Positions 32,341-40,108 of a stretch of 42,816 nucleotides of DNA are shown in pieces. This stretch comes from Akkermansia sp. (GTDB lineage: Bacteria; Verrucomicrobiota; Verrucomicrobiia; Verrucomicrobiales; Akkermansiaceae). The stretch is taken from NCBI GenBank assembly GCA_030535795.1, contig JAUNRE010000010.1, positions 1-42,816 on the forward strand. The letters run 5' to 3'. The notes below the pieces were generated by a model. It saw only the letters and a program-made list of their open reading frames with translations. It had not been told where the DNA came from and searched no databases. The translations under genes were made by a program, and so were the position numbers. Within the stretch, counting starts at the first letter, position 1; every line of letters begins with the position of its first letter.

Positions 32341-34026
32341 TTACGGCATCGGGAAAGACTTGTTGAACGCGCTTACCTCAGCACGCAGGGCATCGTAAGC
32401 ATCAGCCGTCTCGTGCACCTTCTGCGCTGCGAGGATGGCCAGACAGCGGGCAATGTACTCCGCAACCTTACGCACATCTTCCTCCTTCATACCGCGAGTG
32501 GTAACAGCGGGGGTGCCGATGCGGATGCCGGAGGGCTTAGCCGTTGTGCCCTTGTCGTAGGGGATGGCGTTCTTATTGACGGTGATGCCGACCTTATCAA
32601 GAGCCACCTGCGCCTCGGCGCCATTGAGCCCCTTCACGCTGAGGTCCACCAGGAAGCAGTGGTTGTCTGTGCCACCGGCCACGATACGGAACCCGCGGGC
32701 GGAGAGCTCGGCAGCCATGGCCTTGGAGTTCTTGACCACCTGGGCTGCGTAATCGCGGAACTCAGGCTTGAGTGCCTCGCCAAGGCAGGCAGCCTTAGCG
32801 GCGATGACATGCATCAGCGGGCCACCTTGCAGACCGGGGAACGTTGCGCTGTTGAGCTTCTTGGCCCACTTTTCCTTGCAAAGCACCATACCGCCGCGCG
32901 GGCCACGCAGGCTCTTGTGGGTGGTGGTGGACACAAAGTCAGCGTAGGGAACGGGGGACGGGTGAGCACCGCCGGCCACAAGCCCCGCAATGTGAGCCAT
33001 ATCAACAAACATGATAGCGCCTACCTCGTCGCAGATTTCACGGATACGCTTAAAGTCGATGGTGCGAGAGTAGGCGGAGGCTCCGGCCAGAATCAGAGCG
33101 GGCTTGCACTCGCGAGCCTTATTGGCCATATCCTCGTAGTCAATGCACTCGGTCTCAGGGTTTACGCCGTAGTGCACCACCTTGTACTGCTTGCCGGAGA
33201 AGTTGGCGAAGAAGCCATGGGAAAGGTGGCCGCCGCAAGCCAAATCCATGGTGAGAATAGTATCACCGGGGTTAATGCAAGCGTGATACACGCTCATGTT
33301 GGCCTGAGAGCCGGAGTGAGCCTGTACGTTGGCAAAGTCGCAACCGAAGAGAGCGCAGGCGCGATCGATGGCCAGTTGCTCCACTTTGTCCACCACCTCA
33401 CAGCCTCCGTACCAGCGCTTGGAGGGGTAGCCCTCGGCATACTTGTTGGTAAGCACGGAGCCCTGAGCCTCCATCACGGCAGGCGAGGCAAAGTTCTCTG
33501 AGGCAATCAGCTCGATGTTGTTGCGCTGGCGGTTGTGCTCTTCTTCGATGTAAGCGGCAAGCTCAGGGTCGGTGGAAGCCAGAGCGGAGCCGGAGGCCTT
33601 GGCCAGCCGGCGCACGTGGCGCCCGCCTTCGAATTCGGACTCAAGCCAGGTGTGTAGCAGGTCATCAATATCATCAGCCGTTACGAATGCCGAGGCAATG
33701 CAAATCACGTTAGAATCATTGTGCTGGCGGGAAAGCGCAGCCACCTGCGGCGTGCGAGTCAACGTTGCACGAACACCCTTCCAGCGGTTTGCAGCAATGC
33801 TCATGCCCAGACCGGAGAAGCAAATCAGAACACCACGGTCAGCGCGGCCATCCGTCACGCGCTTGCAGACTTCGTTGGCATAGTCGGAATAATCGCAGGA
33901 CTCCTTGGTATTAGTGCCTACGTCCTCTACCGTGTACCCCCAGCTGGTGAGGAGTTCCACAGCAACTTCCTTCAGATCCACGCCCTTGTGATCCGAACCG
34001 ATTGCGATGCGAAGGTTGGTATTCAT
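32341..34026 (-). CDS. RpiB-GlyA fusion: ribose-5-phosphate isomerase B plus serine hydroxymethyltransferase
   Basis: A single 561-residue frame. Residues 1-145 are RpiB: start IAIGSDHKG, catalytic C69 in [16 protein letters not shown], and H102 in HNDSNV. The usual ICGTG reads ICFSG. Residues 151-561 are a complete serine hydroxymethyltransferase: IELIASENF (172-180), HSGSQAN (237-243), and the PLP lysine K371 in [14 protein letters not shown]. The linker of about ten residues is small and polar. RpiB interconverts ribulose and ribose 5-phosphate. GlyA makes glycine and methylene-THF. Both feed purine synthesis. I place the start at 34026, since ATGs at 34083 and 34053 lie on or before the promoter boxes. 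Confidence 0.93.
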
Positions 34027-34054
34027 ACGAATGTTACGCCTGTTGAGCGCGCAC

Positions 34055-34083
34055 ATTCTAGCACATGATAGAGCTTTTAGCAA
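34055..34083 (-). promoter_or_regulatory. Promoter of the RpiB-GlyA fusion gene
   Basis: TTGCTA (34078-34083), 17-bp spacer, TAGAAT (34055-34060) preceded by GTGC, 28 bp to the ATG at 34026. Predicted leader about 21 nt. Confidence 0.6.
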
Positions 34084-34102: not shown

Positions 34103-35083
34103 TCAGTCCTCGTGTTCGAGGGTTGAGCGCAGGCGACGGGAACCGAAAAAGGCGGGCTTTACTTCATCTTGCAGGTAATGGCTCACGCGGTCCATGATAT
34201 GCACCAGAATTTCCAGCTCAGGAGAGAAAAGGAACATATCTTCCTCATAACTGCGGCTTATTCCCGCATTGCAGGTTATCGCGCGCATCTCTCTATGCAA
34301 GCGGCTGAGCTGCAAAGACACGACATCAGCAGAATCCTTATCACGCACCAGTGCAATCAGAGCCACCCACTGCCGCATGAGCGGCTCAAGCTCGCGGGTG
34401 GCTTTCATAACGCCTGGAATAGCATCAGGATCCACCTGCATGTTCATGTTTTCCAGCACATCGCGCACGGCTAACAAGCCTTCCATCAGCCGCTCGGACT
34501 CAAAATAAGCGGCATCTCGCAAAGCCAGCGCGCCCCAAGCCTGCAAAAACTTCGACACATGCCGACGATTCCCGGAGAGGTAACGCATGCGCAGTTCGCG
34601 CCGCGCCGCCCGAGGTGTGGGTTCCGTCAGTTCGGCAAGCTTTTCGGCACGGGATGCCATGAAGGGGGCAAAAGAGTCCAGCAACTCTGCCGCAGAATCC
34701 GCTGTTGCTTTATCGGTTACGCGGTTGAGGGTGGCTGTCAGGTCATCCATCGCCTGCCACATTTCACTGAGGGGCTGCAGGAAAGGCGTCACATCAGCCA
34801 TTTCCTTATCGGTCAGTTGCGGCAGAAAAGGCTTCATGACAGCCTGAAGCTCCGGTGAGCCGAAGCAGGAAGTGCCGCGCAACAGCAGTAAATCGTATTG
34901 GTCCACCGTTACTTTATCGATCCCCACCTGTTCTATCATGCTCTGAATACGAGGAGCCGCGGCATCAGCACTGTTGCGGTCTGCCACATACATGAGAATG
35001 GGAGAAAGCGATGCGCTCCCCTGCTGCGCAAGGGTAAGCGGAGCCGCCATGGCAAGTGTAAGGAGAGAGAGGAGCGTTTTCAT
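34103..35083 (-). CDS. Secreted protein with three D-K-x-x-A-D / F-G-S repeat units
   Basis: A 326-residue protein with signal peptide to about residue 20. It is largely helical and built of three units: about 32-84, 121-204 and 245-322. Each begins with a motif like VTDKATADSAA (here VADRNSADAAA at 33-43, VTDKATADSAA at 122-132, VRDKDSADVV at 246-255) and ends with an aromatic-G-S-x-x-L helix (CFGSPEL at 73-79, YFESERL at 193-199, FFGSRRL at 312-318). The same units occur in the protein at 37693. No enzyme motif is visible. Its ATG overlaps the ankyrin gene stop (ATGA). Confidence 0.78.
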   Translation of the reverse strand: MKTLLSLLTLAMAAPLTLAQQGSASLSPILMYVADRNSADAAAPRIQSMIEQVGIDKVTVDQYDLLLLRGTSCFGSPELQAVMKPFLPQLTDKEMADVTPFLQPLSEMWQAMDDLTATLNRVTDKATADSAAELLDSFAPFMASRAEKLAELTEPTPRAARRELRMRYLSGNRRHVSKFLQAWGALALRDAAYFESERLMEGLLAVRDVLENMNMQVDPDAIPGVMKATRELEPLMRQWVALIALVRDKDSADVVSLQLSRLHREMRAITCNAGISRSYEEDMFLFSPELEILVHIMDRVSHYLQDEVKPAFFGSRRLRSTLEHED

Positions 35084-36294
35084 TCGTCAGAGTTTGTATC
35101 CGTTGGTTGTTGCTCGGGGGTGTATCCGAATTCGCGGAAGATTTCCTGCGTTTTTTGTTTCAAAGCATCACATTGCCAATCTGCCGGCAGTGGAGCGGGT
35201 GCAGCCTTGTGCTCGAAGAGAAGCCGCAACTTTTGCAGCTCCTCCTTGCCGTGTTCTTCGGCTTCCTGGATGGCCAGCATATCAAGCACCAGCGCCAGCG
35301 GTGTGCGCTTTTCCGGCGCGTATTGCGCTTCGGATGCCGGCAGTAAATCGACCTCCGCCCCGAGGCTCAGCAGCATCTTGAGCACCGACAACTTGCCGGC
35401 CATAGCAGCAAGTTGCAGGTAGGTCATGCTGCTGCGTTGGTCATTGATGTTGATTCGGCCTTCTTTCACCAGGCGCTCAAACACAGGCATGGCCACATCT
35501 TCCTCGACACATTGCTCCAGCGGCAACCAACTGTGCTTATTCTTACGGCACACATCGAGCGGCAGGCCGTGCGCCAGCAGCCACTCCAACGTTGCCGCGC
35601 CGTCATCGGCCAGTATCACGGCTTCGTACAGTTTGAGGTCAACCTTCACCTCTGCTCCCTTGCTCAGCAGCCACTCCGCTTCGGAAAACACTTCCTGTTG
35701 AGGTTTACTTTCCATATTACTGAGCACCAGCGACAACAAGCTGTATCCATCAGCATCGGTCTGATTCACCGGAAATCCCTTTTCGACAAATACCCGCATG
35801 GCTGCCCATTGTCCCATTTCCGCAGCATCATGGGGCAAGGTGCACGGCGTTTCCGAGTCTCTCAGTATCAAGGCAGCAGTTGCCGCATCCGACTGCACCC
35901 ATTCGCGAAGACTGTCAGCAGCGCGGCGGGCATGCGGCAGGGTGTGCTTATCGCGCATGAGCACCCAATCCATCGTATCAGTCGGCGGCTCTTCCTGCCC
36001 ATTCTCCAGCCACGCATTGTACATATCTGATTCGACGGTGTACTTATCATTGTCGAAGCGGATAGCATAAGCAAAAGCATTCATTGCCAGTTTGTCGCTT
36101 TCCTGCCAGTGGGGTGCATACCTCATCTCACCGCGCAGCAACCAGCCATAGGTGCTGATACCGTCGAAGAGCATCACGCAGGCCATCAGCAGAATGACGG
36201 TCGCGAACATAAACATCATGGTGTAGGCCGCGACGTTCAAGAACACGCGCCACGGCGCATACGCAGCGCTGTTTACTGGTGGTATTTGTATCAT
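35080..36294 (-). CDS. Membrane-anchored ankyrin-repeat protein
   Basis: A 404-residue protein with one long N-terminal membrane helix (about 22-46) and the rest soluble. Ankyrin repeats run from about residue 160 to 345: for example DGYSLLSLVLSNM, the AEWLLSKGAEV unit, TLEWLLAHGLPL, and TYLQLAAMAGKLSVLKMLLSLGAEV. The best match (about 290-315) is canonical. Residues 50-150 have no repeats and three Trp. The partner is unknown. It has its own promoter and is coupled to the repeat protein downstream through an ATGA overlap, so the pair may act together. Confidence 0.85.
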   Translation of the reverse strand: MIQIPPVNSAAYAPWRVFLNVAAYTMMFMFATVILLMACVMLFDGISTYGWLLRGEMRYAPHWQESDKLAMNAFAYAIRFDNDKYTVESDMYNAWLENGQEEPPTDTMDWVLMRDKHTLPHARRAADSLREWVQSDAATAALILRDSETPCTLPHDAAEMGQWAAMRVFVEKGFPVNQTDADGYSLLSLVLSNMESKPQQEVFSEAEWLLSKGAEVKVDLKLYEAVILADDGAATLEWLLAHGLPLDVCRKNKHSWLPLEQCVEEDVAMPVFERLVKEGRININDQRSSMTYLQLAAMAGKLSVLKMLLSLGAEVDLLPASEAQYAPEKRTPLALVLDMLAIQEAEEHGKEELQKLRLLFEHKAAPAPLPADWQCDALKQKTQEIFREFGYTPEQQPTDTNSDE

Positions 36295-36305
36295 CCTGTG
36301 GTGTA

Positions 36306-36334
36306 TTTATAGCACACTTCAGGCGCGATGACAA
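36306..36334 (-). promoter_or_regulatory. Promoter of the ankyrin/repeat-protein operon
   Basis: TTGTCA (36329-36334), 17-bp spacer, TATAAA (36306-36311) preceded by GTGC, 11 bp to the ATG at 36294. It fills the 44-bp gap after the MFS gene. Confidence 0.7.
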
Positions 36335-36338
36335 GCAC

Positions 36339-37514
36339 TCACTTCATTTTGCGGGCAAGAAAACCGGCGGCAACCACAGCAAGTCCACCCGTCAGGAATA
36401 CGGCTTGTGGCCCGCCGGAATACGTCCAGATGATGCCGCCGATAATACCGTAGGCGATGGAGGCCACATGATTGATGGCAATCCCGGTGTAGATGCAGGG
36501 GGTGATATCGCTGCGCCGGTCGCCGCAGATGCGTGCAATATACGTAGTCCGAGCCATTCCCAAATCAAAGAGCACCTTATCCAGCACAAAACAGCACCCT
36601 ACCACCGCCACAGCCCAATGCGCAGGCAACAACCCGGGAGCAAAAGCATAGGCCAGACACAGCAGCGAGAGCGCCACACTGTCGAAGATGGTGACGCGCT
36701 TTTCACCAAAGCGTTTAATGCTCCGGCCTATAAGCGGCTGGGTGAAGAGCCCGATGACACCGGCGCAAAGCATAATCATGCCGATGCGCGATGGCGGCTG
36801 CTGGAGCGTATTCACCATGAGCCAGTAACCGAAAGTGATATAGAGCTGCTTACGAATACCGTGCAACGTTTCGATACCGTAATAGACGGCGTATTCCTTT
36901 CGCAGGATGAAGTTCTCGCGCATACTCTTGCGGCGAGGGAACTCCGGCGTGCGGATGCAGAATAGCAGAGTGGCAGCAACCAGGAATATACCGATAATCA
37001 GGATATAATCCCACGCAAAATCATGATTAAACTTCCACTTCAGCCAAATGAACAACGCCCCCAGAAGCGTAGCCGCCGTACCGAGGGCGCGCATTTGCCC
37101 CAGGCGCAGGCTCCGATTCTCGGGGCGTGCCGTGTGCATCACAATCGAGTCCACCGTGCCCATGAGAATGTGCAAGCCCAGGCTCGCCGTCAGCACACAC
37201 ACGCTTAGCTCCCACATGTCGGCATCCGGCCCCAGTTGCATCATGAAAAACGTACCCACGGCCGCCAGCAATACGGACACCGCCGCCAATCGCACTTCAT
37301 TCAGGAAGAAAAGAGCCCCCAACACCACCAGACTCAGCACTCCCGGTAACTCGCGCGGCAACTCAAGAAACCCTCGTTCCCCGGCATCCAGATGCAACAC
37401 ATCGCTCAGGAAATTGCTGAACAGTAAATCATAGACCCCTGCTCCCAGTTGTGCCAGAAATAACGCCGCCAACACGGCCACCATCACTTTGCGGATTCGC
37501 GGTGCCTCACTCAT
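36339..37514 (-). CDS. Major facilitator superfamily transporter
   Basis: A 391-residue membrane protein with about 12 helices. The central loop carries SIKRFGEKRVTIFDS, and GLFTQPLIGRSIKRFGEKR matches the MFS loop-8-9 copy of the G-x-x-x-D-R-x-G-R-R motif. An earlier charged loop (TPEFPRRKSMRENF) separates the halves. Substrate unknown. Start at ATG 37514 is supported by the promoter. An upstream GTG at 37535 is within it. Confidence 0.88.
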   Translation of the reverse strand: MSEAPRIRKVMVAVLAALFLAQLGAGVYDLLFSNFLSDVLHLDAGERGFLELPRELPGVLSLVVLGALFFLNEVRLAAVSVLLAAVGTFFMMQLGPDADMWELSVCVLTASLGLHILMGTVDSIVMHTARPENRSLRLGQMRALGTAATLLGALFIWLKWKFNHDFAWDYILIIGIFLVAATLLFCIRTPEFPRRKSMRENFILRKEYAVYYGIETLHGIRKQLYITFGYWLMVNTLQQPPSRIGMIMLCAGVIGLFTQPLIGRSIKRFGEKRVTIFDSVALSLLCLAYAFAPGLLPAHWAVAVVGCCFVLDKVLFDLGMARTTYIARICGDRRSDITPCIYTGIAINHVASIAYGIIGGIIWTYSGGPQAVFLTGGLAVVAAGFLARKMK

Positions 37515-37523
37515 ACCGCCGCC

Positions 37524-37552
37524 AGCATAATACACCCCACCTGTTATTTCAA
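37524..37552 (-). promoter_or_regulatory. Promoter of the MFS gene
   Basis: TTGAAA (37547-37552), 17-bp spacer, TATGCT (37524-37529), 9 bp to the ATG at 37514. Predicted leader 2-3 nt. Confidence 0.65.
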
Positions 37553-37653
37553 CGCTGCTCTGCGTCAGTACAAATCACACACCGGGTAGCGTGTTCTCTG
37601 CCACAGCATCCGGATCCGCTAACATCTTCATCTCCGTATCGTTGTTTTTTTGC

Positions 37654-37682
37654 TTGACCCTGCGACGGTTGGGCGTTAACAT
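37654..37682 (+). promoter_or_regulatory. Promoter of the second repeat-protein gene
   Basis: TTGACC (37654-37659), 17-bp spacer, TAACAT (37677-37682), 10 bp to the ATG at 37693. A second -10-like TATTAT lies at 37685-37690 but is only 2 bp from the ATG. Confidence 0.6.
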
Positions 37683-37692
37683 CATATTATAC

Positions 37693-38733
37693 ATGAAACG
37701 TCTCTCCGTCATATCGCTTCTGATGTTTCTTCCGGCCTTTGCTTCGGAAGAAACTGATTTTTCCAAAATTGACCCCGGCACGCACTCGGATATTCCCTTC
37801 ATCCGCCACGAAAGTCGGGATGATGATGTTGTGCCACCAACCTACCTGCAAAAGCGCTTGGAGATATTGCGTGAGGTACAGGATGAGCTGAGTGCCAAAT
37901 CCGCAGTAGCCATTCTGCGCACGCTCACCCCGAAAAACGCCGTCAGCGACACACCGGTAACACAGCCCGTCAACGTGCTGCAAATGAACATAGCGATGGA
38001 GCTCAATCGTTTGCGCGATGCCTCGTTCTATGGCTCCGAGGCTCTGGCGGAGCTGCTCAACTTCAGCCGCGAAGCAGCAATGTTACCGGAGCAGCCTACA
38101 CCCGAGCTATTGCAGGAGCTCCAGGGTGAAATCTTGAAAAACACGGGCGAGCGTCCGCCACAGTCGGAAGTAAGCGGCGGCCCCGGTTTTACTGTCGGCT
38201 CGGCATGGATTGTGCACAACACCGACAAAAGCCAATGCTACGATGCTGCGTTTTCTGCCTCGACCGATGGGTTTGATGACTGGACAGACTCGGCGCAGCG
38301 TATGGAAGTGGTTGAGAACAGACGTTTCATCGTCTATACCATCACACTGGTACGCCATGACCGAAAGTACAAAGTGGAACAATGGTGCGACATCTCGGCG
38401 GCGCGCAAGGTCTATACCCCCGAAGAACAGCAGGCAGCCATGCAGCAGATAGTCAGCAATCTGCAAGCCATGCAGCAACTCATGGTCAGCATTACCGACA
38501 AAGCCGGCGCCGATGAAGCGACTCCCCGCATGCAGGAGCTCATCGCTGCCGTCTCACCGCTGCGCGAAATTGCTGAAACGCGCAACACCGAAACATCGCT
38601 CATGAGTAATCTCACCTCCGGGTTTGACTACACTGCCTTCCGCGCTGCCATCAAGCGCCACAAGGAGCATGACTACTACGGCTCCGAAGCGCTGCGTGCC
38701 TTCCTTCATTCCCTCGTGGGGCTGAAAGAATAG
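37693..38733 (+). CDS. Secreted protein with two D-x-x-x-A / Y-G-S repeat units
   Basis: A 346-residue protein with signal peptide to about residue 18. Unit 1 starts with VQDELSAKSAVAIL (62-75) and ends with FYGSEALAELL (112-122). Unit 2 starts with ITDKAGADEATPRM (267-280) and ends with YYGSEALRAFL (328-338). Both match the three units of the protein at 34103-35083. Between them lies a domain of about 140 residues with beta character (GFTVGSAWIVHNTDKS and RRFIVYTITLVRHDRKYKVEQWCD). The frame is open upstream to 37591 but the signal peptide and promoter fix the start at 37693. Confidence 0.78.
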   Translation: MKRLSVISLLMFLPAFASEETDFSKIDPGTHSDIPFIRHESRDDDVVPPTYLQKRLEILREVQDELSAKSAVAILRTLTPKNAVSDTPVTQPVNVLQMNIAMELNRLRDASFYGSEALAELLNFSREAAMLPEQPTPELLQELQGEILKNTGERPPQSEVSGGPGFTVGSAWIVHNTDKSQCYDAAFSASTDGFDDWTDSAQRMEVVENRRFIVYTITLVRHDRKYKVEQWCDISAARKVYTPEEQQAAMQQIVSNLQAMQQLMVSITDKAGADEATPRMQELIAAVSPLREIAETRNTETSLMSNLTSGFDYTAFRAAIKRHKEHDYYGSEALRAFLHSLVGLKE

Positions 38734-38815: not shown

Positions 38816-40108
38816 ATGAAGAAAACAGCACTTCTCGCCATATTGGCTGCACTGAGTGCAACCGCGTTTGCCGCTGAGCCCGCCATGCGTGCCTCGCTTG
38901 CGAAGTGGGAGCAGCAGATGACTGAATACCGGGCTGCCTGCAAGGTGGCAACCACGGATGAGCAGAGAGCAGCCATTAAGATACCGGATGGCAGTGACAT
39001 CGCTGCGGAGTTGTGGCAGAGTGTGAACCGGAAGACGGGTGAGCGCGAGGAGTTGGTGTGCCCCACCGCTGCCGAACGCATGAATGGTGCTGTGGATGAG
39101 CGCAAGATGGTGCCCGTGTATGAGTTTGACCAGCCGTGGGCTGCGCCTGCCGTGGTATGGTTCATCAACCACCCCGATGTGTTTGCCAAGATGTTCAACG
39201 GCCGCCAACGCCGTGTAGCCTACTATGCCAACGCCTTGCTGGAGAGCCTGAATCGCACCCACTACGCCAACCCGGCAGTGGCAGATTGCTGCGCCAAGCT
39301 CTCGGAAAGCCAGAGTGTGCGTGTCTATGAGATTCTTCAAAAAATCTACAGCCGCAACCAAGACCTGGCCGCCCGCGCCAATGCCGCCATGGCCATGAGC
39401 ATCATGCTCTCTAACCCCACCATCTCCGGGGCGGAAGGAAGCGCCGCCATGGCTCGCAGTAAACAGCTCTACTTCCTGCGCCAGGCTGTGCGTATCGCCC
39501 CCGAAAACGCCATGTTCGGTGCGAGAACGCTCAGTGAGGCTATCATCGAGATGAGCTATGTGCTGCGAAACCTGAGCGTCGGTAGTGTGCCGCCGCTGCT
39601 GAATGTACTCGCGGCAGACGGTAACACAGCCACCTTCCCGGTGGCCGGTAAGCCCAACCTCATCTTCTTCTGGTCGCCGGACGAACCGATGGGGTTGAGC
39701 GTGGTGCAGAAACAGCATCAGCTCGCGCAGCAGTACCCCGGCCTCGTTTTCTGCCCCGTCACCGTGCACGAGGAGCGCGAAGAGTGGCTGATGAAGCTCC
39801 GCCAGATTGGTGTGGTGGCTAATTGTTTCATGGATGATGCGGAAAACAGCAACGGCCGCGCATACCGCGTGGCACAGCTGCCTACGGCGGTCCTGGTGGG
39901 CGCCGACAGCCGCATCCTCTTTATCGGATACCCCGGCCTCCCCTTGCAGACGGCGCTCGATAGCCTCTTTGCCAACAGCAAAAAGCAGGCACCCCGTATT
40001 CTGGTGGAAGAAACAGCTCCCGCCATGCAGCCCGGCTCGCAGCCTGCTACACCTACAGGCAGCAGCGATGAAGCACCCGCGCTGCGTGATATGCCGGAAG
40101 ATTTCTGA
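38816..40108 (+). CDS. Secreted protein with thioredoxin-like domain lacking CxxC
   Basis: A 430-residue protein with signal peptide MKKTALLAILAALSATAFA. Residues about 25-260 are helical and may include TPR-like helices (for example RVYEILQKIYSRNQDLAARA). Residues about 265-395 look like a TlpA/AhpC-type thioredoxin fold: a strand (NLIFFW), the position where CxxC would sit reading SPDEPMG, a central helix, the cis-proline strand QLPTAVLVGADSRI, and a closing YPG turn. The redox cysteines are absent, so a binding or structural role is more likely. The tail is Pro/Thr-rich. It ends in TGATG, sharing one base with hrpB. Confidence 0.75.
   Translation: MKKTALLAILAALSATAFAAEPAMRASLAKWEQQMTEYRAACKVATTDEQRAAIKIPDGSDIAAELWQSVNRKTGEREELVCPTAAERMNGAVDERKMVPVYEFDQPWAAPAVVWFINHPDVFAKMFNGRQRRVAYYANALLESLNRTHYANPAVADCCAKLSESQSVRVYEILQKIYSRNQDLAARANAAMAMSIMLSNPTISGAEGSAAMARSKQLYFLRQAVRIAPENAMFGARTLSEAIIEMSYVLRNLSVGSVPPLLNVLAADGNTATFPVAGKPNLIFFWSPDEPMGLSVVQKQHQLAQQYPGLVFCPVTVHEEREEWLMKLRQIGVVANCFMDDAENSNGRAYRVAQLPTAVLVGADSRILFIGYPGLPLQTALDSLFANSKKQAPRILVEETAPAMQPGSQPATPTGSSDEAPALRDMPEDF

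Follow-up and report, generated by a model that had tools for sequence, protein, structure and literature searches.

Akkermansia is a much-studied gut symbiont, and its influence on the host is believed to depend on the proteins that it exports. One published point of comparison for the locus considered here is StlA, a salt-tolerance protein encoded on a metagenomic fosmid of human gut origin that bears Akkermansia-like genes (PMC3861447). StlA has 257 residues, was predicted to be exported and had no homologues when it was described, and homologues of StlA are often found near ankyrin-repeat genes (PMC3861447). By that description it also has four transmembrane regions (PMC3861447), and for this reason we set it aside as a candidate member of the family discussed below. 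Our literature search found no paper describing this family. Judged from their sequences, the two exported proteins at this locus, A and B, are members of a homologous module family of approximately 95 residues per unit, for which we coin the name SADA/YGS after its two conserved motifs.

Layout of the locus

The window, a stretch of 42,816 nucleotides, is part of contig C162 of a 2.40 Mb Akkermansia metagenome-assembled genome. Its relevant features are as follows.

34103-35083, minus strand: protein A, 326 residues, with a signal peptide (MKTLLSLLTLAMAAPLTLAQ) and three units, A1-A3
34829-35011, minus strand: unit A1, short, VADRNSADAAA ... CFGSPEL; assigned by profile and kept in protein A orthologues
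34472-34780, minus strand: unit A2, VTDKATADSAA ... YFESERL; assigned by profile
34112-34411, minus strand: unit A3, VRDKDSADVVS ... FFGSRRL; assigned by profile
35080-36294, minus strand: ankyrin-repeat protein (Pfam Ank_4, 4.3e-09) with a single N-terminal hydrophobic stretch, likely a membrane anchor
36339-37535, minus strand: MFS transporter gene (Pfam MFS_1, 4.5e-13), upstream of the ankyrin gene and without a SADA/YGS unit
37693-38733, plus strand: protein B, 346 residues, with a signal peptide and the order unit, GGPG domain, unit
37843-38064, plus strand: unit B1, shortened, VQDELSAKSA ... FYGSEAL; assigned by profile and model
38170-38415, plus strand: GGPG domain, GGPGFTVGSAW ... QWCDIS, approximately 82 residues; assigned by profile and a low-confidence model
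38428-38712, plus strand: unit B2, ITDKAGADEA ... YYGSEAL; assigned by profile and model, and the unit modelled with AlphaFold2

The two genes and the five motif pairs were all present where a first-pass annotation of this DNA had put them. For protein B, a GTG start at 37591 was rejected and the start was set at the ATG at 37693 (MKRLSVISLLMFLPAFASE). Orthologues of protein A occur in nine other Akkermansia genomes, and orthologues of protein B were also found in other genomes. The MFS, ankyrin, protein A and RpiB-SHMT genes follow one another in that order on the same strand. The last of these is a single frame (32341-34083, minus strand) that fuses ribose-5-phosphate isomerase B (RpiB, residues 26-162; Pfam 3.8e-50) to serine hydroxymethyltransferase (residues 169-544; Pfam 2e-166), and a long frame matching RpiB-SHMT adjoins protein A in genome G336 as well (L129). 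On the other side, protein B is adjoined by a gene for a secreted thioredoxin-like protein (38816-40108, plus strand; Pfam Thioredoxin_8, 4.1e-07), a gene order also kept in G336 (L138).

Homology of the five units

The first-pass annotation proposed that the five units share one plan, in which a VxDKxSAD-like motif is followed 30-65 residues later by aromatic-aromatic-G-S-E-x-L. The spacing measured from motif start to motif start (A1 40, A2 71, A3 66, B1 50 and B2 61 residues) roughly agrees with this proposal. The second motif was drawn too tightly, since GSE is found in B1 and B2 only and the units of protein A read CFGSPEL (A1), YFESERL (A2) and FFGSRRL (A3). A looser plan, VxDKxSAD and then aromatic-G-S-x-x-L after 40-71 residues, describes all five units, with the second motif relaxed in A2. 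Global alignment of the window units in pairs returned z values of 0.2-6.5 with several pairs near chance, so the repeat claim would be doubtful from these five units alone. Stronger evidence came from an independent profile, for which 84 units were taken from other genomes and both the window genome and the A and B orthologues were excluded. This profile matched the whole proteins at E=1.5e-26 (A) and E=3.1e-21 (B), whereas the best E value among 1000 shuffles, made of protein B only, was 0.097. At the level of single units it matched A2 at 2.4e-13, B2 at 2.0e-13, A3 at 1.8e-4 and A1 at 5e-4, and B1 was matched as two halves (0.03 and 4.5e-4). By this measure A2 and B2 are clear members, and the profile also supports A3, A1 and B1, which are copies that have diverged or been shortened. 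Chance similarity was rejected for the five-unit set because of these E values relative to shuffles near 0.1, and the idea that A and B share a repeat family is thus borne out. Conservation in the family centers on the two motifs, with Asp at 84%, Ala at 97%, Gly at 84%, Ser at 84% and Leu at 96%, and other positions vary.

We also looked for a relationship between these units and described domains. Neither A nor B had a match above the curated cut-off in Pfam or NCBIfam, and Pfam searches with A, B and 41 units gave scattered weak helical matches, the best being GlutR_dimer at 5.7e-06 in a single member and none being consistent. A search of PDB sequences returned no significant relative of the unit. 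The earlier statement that no named domain has this pattern stands, with no credible match in Pfam, NCBIfam or PDB sequences.

Distribution and architecture

Searching the window genome with A and B uncovered further proteins carrying the same motif pair. In all, this genome has approximately 24 units in approximately 17 genes; an 11-unit profile lists 24 matches, 23 of them at E<0.01. A profile search of 30 relatives gave as many as 37 matches in one genome. In a survey of 241 genomes of the order, in which no more than about 20 candidates were scored for each genome and copy numbers are therefore lower bounds, the unit was present in 49/49 Akkermansia genomes, with 1 to at least 20 matches and a median of 12, and 35 of the remaining 192 genomes carried 1-3 matches, the others none. 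At the level of the phylum, 31/288 genomes were positive, 23 of them Akkermansia. A scan of 84,980 species with a single short peptide pattern, which finds close copies only, gave 13 relatives, each of them from Akkermansia or Akkermansiaceae; the profile search covered one phylum. Named relatives include Akkermansia muciniphila (a few copies), A. glycaniphila and Akkermansia metagenome-assembled genomes. The expectation that a profile would reach beyond the five units was confirmed, as numerous further members turned up in this genome and across the genus and few beyond it, and the family is far larger than the two window proteins suggested. The proposal of a lineage-specific module survives in part: the module is expanded in Akkermansia, but related genera hold 0-3 copies, so it is not exclusive.

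Members of the family come in several layouts. Some consist of a signal peptide and a single unit, and their genes often form tandem arrays (as in L057 and L170 among several species with such arrays), some have two units, and others are of the three-unit A type or the unit-GGPG-unit B type, with the longest chains reaching five units and three GGPG domains. Three single-unit genes stand in a row in A. glycaniphila (L071, 1629-3303), directly 3' of a site-2-protease-like gene. The signal peptides reported for both window proteins were read again as signal-like N-termini in A and B, and such signals are near-universal in the family: by a crude rule, 112/119 family ORFs carry a signal peptide or lipobox, versus 122/400 control ORFs. 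Outside the genus, several relatives are short single-unit lipoproteins (L098, L099, L100, L102, L103, L105 and L160), and others carry plain signal peptides. These few outgroup sequences suggest that the family may have originated as a small lipoprotein. A search for phage or viral-contig relatives found none, and a phage origin was rejected on this ground. The family, its distribution and its export signals are read directly from the genomes.

The second domain of protein B follows the pattern GGPGFTxETAW ... Y ... WxDxT, and profile comparison with Pfam and PDB gave no relative of it. Its own profile search found it in 6/194 genomes of the phylum, all six Akkermansia. Four loci (L025, L032, L034 and L169) have a variant domain after the unit that starts with GGDG, GGSG or GGNG and resembles the GGPG domain.

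Predicted fold

An AlphaFold2 model of unit B2, built from a 21-row alignment, is all-helical (pLDDT 88, pTM 0.78), with helices at residues 3-26, 30-55, 60-70, 73-85, 87-90 and 92-102. Motif 1 corresponds to the break that separates the two long helices, and YGS precedes the last helix. The unit is thus predicted to be an independent all-helical bundle. A helical hairpin had been anticipated for the unit, and a long antiparallel hairpin does make up the N-terminal half of the B2 model, but four shorter helices follow it. The full-length model of protein B has a pLDDT of 65, is low in confidence outside the units, and places a helix and three strands in the GGPG region, also at low confidence. 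The suggestion that predicted structures of the units be compared was followed for protein B, by the order of predicted elements; B1 and B2 repeat the same order. Because motif 1 is modelled as a turn between helices and YGS as the start of the last helix, the conserved motif residues look structural, with the remaining surface free to vary.

Fold comparison of the unit model with Foldseek returned nothing below 0.001. The highest Z given by VIA-align was 7.5, for a fungal lipid-binding protein, followed by approximately 7 for syntaxin domains, and these values are within the range of common helical arrangements. The absence of a fold match with these two tools does not show that the fold is new.

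Possible functions of the module

We are evenly divided on the reading that we prefer, in which the exported proteins A and B consist of helical modules that serve periplasmic or surface protein interaction and were diversified by duplication in Akkermansia. On this reading, VxDKxSAD would supply the turn that joins a pair of long antiparallel helices, F/Y-Y-G-S would start the last helix, and the two conserved motifs would keep the module structurally rigid. The module itself would be a periplasmic or cell-surface block for protein interaction, and tandem duplication followed by divergence would fit its copies to different partners. In protein A, three modules would make up a rod that is produced together with the membrane-anchored ankyrin protein, its probable binding partner, and protein B would have two modules flanking its GGPG domain. 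Binding, partners and biological role of the module are what we infer.

The genomic link between protein A and the ankyrin protein can be followed across species. The stop codon of the ankyrin gene and the start codon of the protein A gene overlap in ATGA, and the two genes are adjacent in four genomes (the window genome, G336, G313 and G163), of which the first three share the overlap and G163 has a short gap. Six genomes keep protein A without this ankyrin gene nearby. The coupling put forward in the first-pass annotation is therefore upheld by the overlap and by the pair in four genomes, but it does not extend to the six A-bearing genomes without the pair, and their lack of it counts against our preferred reading. 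Given the hydrophobic N-terminal stretch of the ankyrin protein, its repeats may be in the periplasm with protein A. Clustering the genes that flank family loci gave no recurrent functional neighbor, only orthologous contexts, which also counts against it. Additionally, the conserved motifs may be only structural, and nothing in the sequence demands binding, a point against the interaction role. A wider version of the proposal is less likely than not: SADA/YGS and GGPG, two exported domains not described before, may together form the core of a combinatorial, fast-duplicating secreted or periplasmic interaction system that derives from single lipoproteins in the order, expanded with the adaptation of Akkermansia to the gut, and uses ankyrin partners in some species.

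Modules that face the host provide a further explanation, which we consider rather unlikely. Displayed or released, they would bind mucin, mucosal proteins or neighboring bacteria, and copy number would track adaptation to the guts of different animals. Expansion in a gut-dwelling genus that is absent from other genera of the order, the strong variation in copy number by species (1 to at least 20) and the export signals on members are all consistent with this role. However, no sorting or surface-anchor domain was seen, Pfam, NCBIfam and PDB sequences gave no similarity to adhesins or lectins, and the ankyrin coupling points to the inner-membrane or periplasmic side. It is improbable that the module carries a lipid or hydrophobic ligand in the core of its bundle in the manner of fungal Mp1-type proteins. 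The top VIA-align row is indeed fungal Afmp4p with bound palmitate (Z 7.5 over 95 residues), but the tool's own note describes Z <13 as common for helical bundles, syntaxin domains score about equally, and sequence support is absent. Less probable still is an immunity or anti-toxin type of family directed against rival bacteria. It would explain the many diverged paralogues and the tandem arrays, yet no toxin gene recurs beside members, the search for phage or viral-contig relatives was negative, and matches to immunity families are single and below threshold. Compositional similarity, with alanine-rich secreted helices having converged without homology, is very improbable: the five window units are only weakly alike in pairs, but profile E values reach 1e-26 against shuffles near 0.1, two separate motifs occur in a fixed order, both protein B units are predicted to follow the same order of helical elements, and the family is nearly restricted to one order.

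Significance and comparison with known systems

A domain that is unnamed in Pfam and NCBIfam, has no PDB sequence relative and occurs several to dozens of times per genome in almost all Akkermansia represents a sizeable unexplored part of the proteins that this symbiont exports. A single profile would allow the SADA/YGS module to be annotated. A. muciniphila, with a few copies, is culturable, so deletion and localization tests are possible in this species.

Three known systems offer points of comparison. Syntaxin Habc-type three-helix bundles (e.g., 1ez3) resemble the predicted model of the unit in their long antiparallel helices, with a VIA-align Z of approximately 7 over 86-100 residues, a value common for helical arrangements; in contrast to the unit, syntaxins are eukaryotic cytosolic proteins, and the two have no sequence relation (Foldseek E 0.78). 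Fungal Mp1-type lipid-binding proteins (Afmp4p, 5j5k) are likewise all-helical and of similar size, with a Z of 7.5 over 95 residues, but the likeness is one of predicted fold only, without sequence relation, and the lipid cavity is a feature of the Mp1-type proteins. Tandem helical repeats, such as the spectrin-like ones, share with this family the use of repeated helical units in variable copy number. The family differs from them in matching no Pfam repeat family at cut-off and in its pairing of VxDKxSAD with YGS, which is particular to SADA/YGS.
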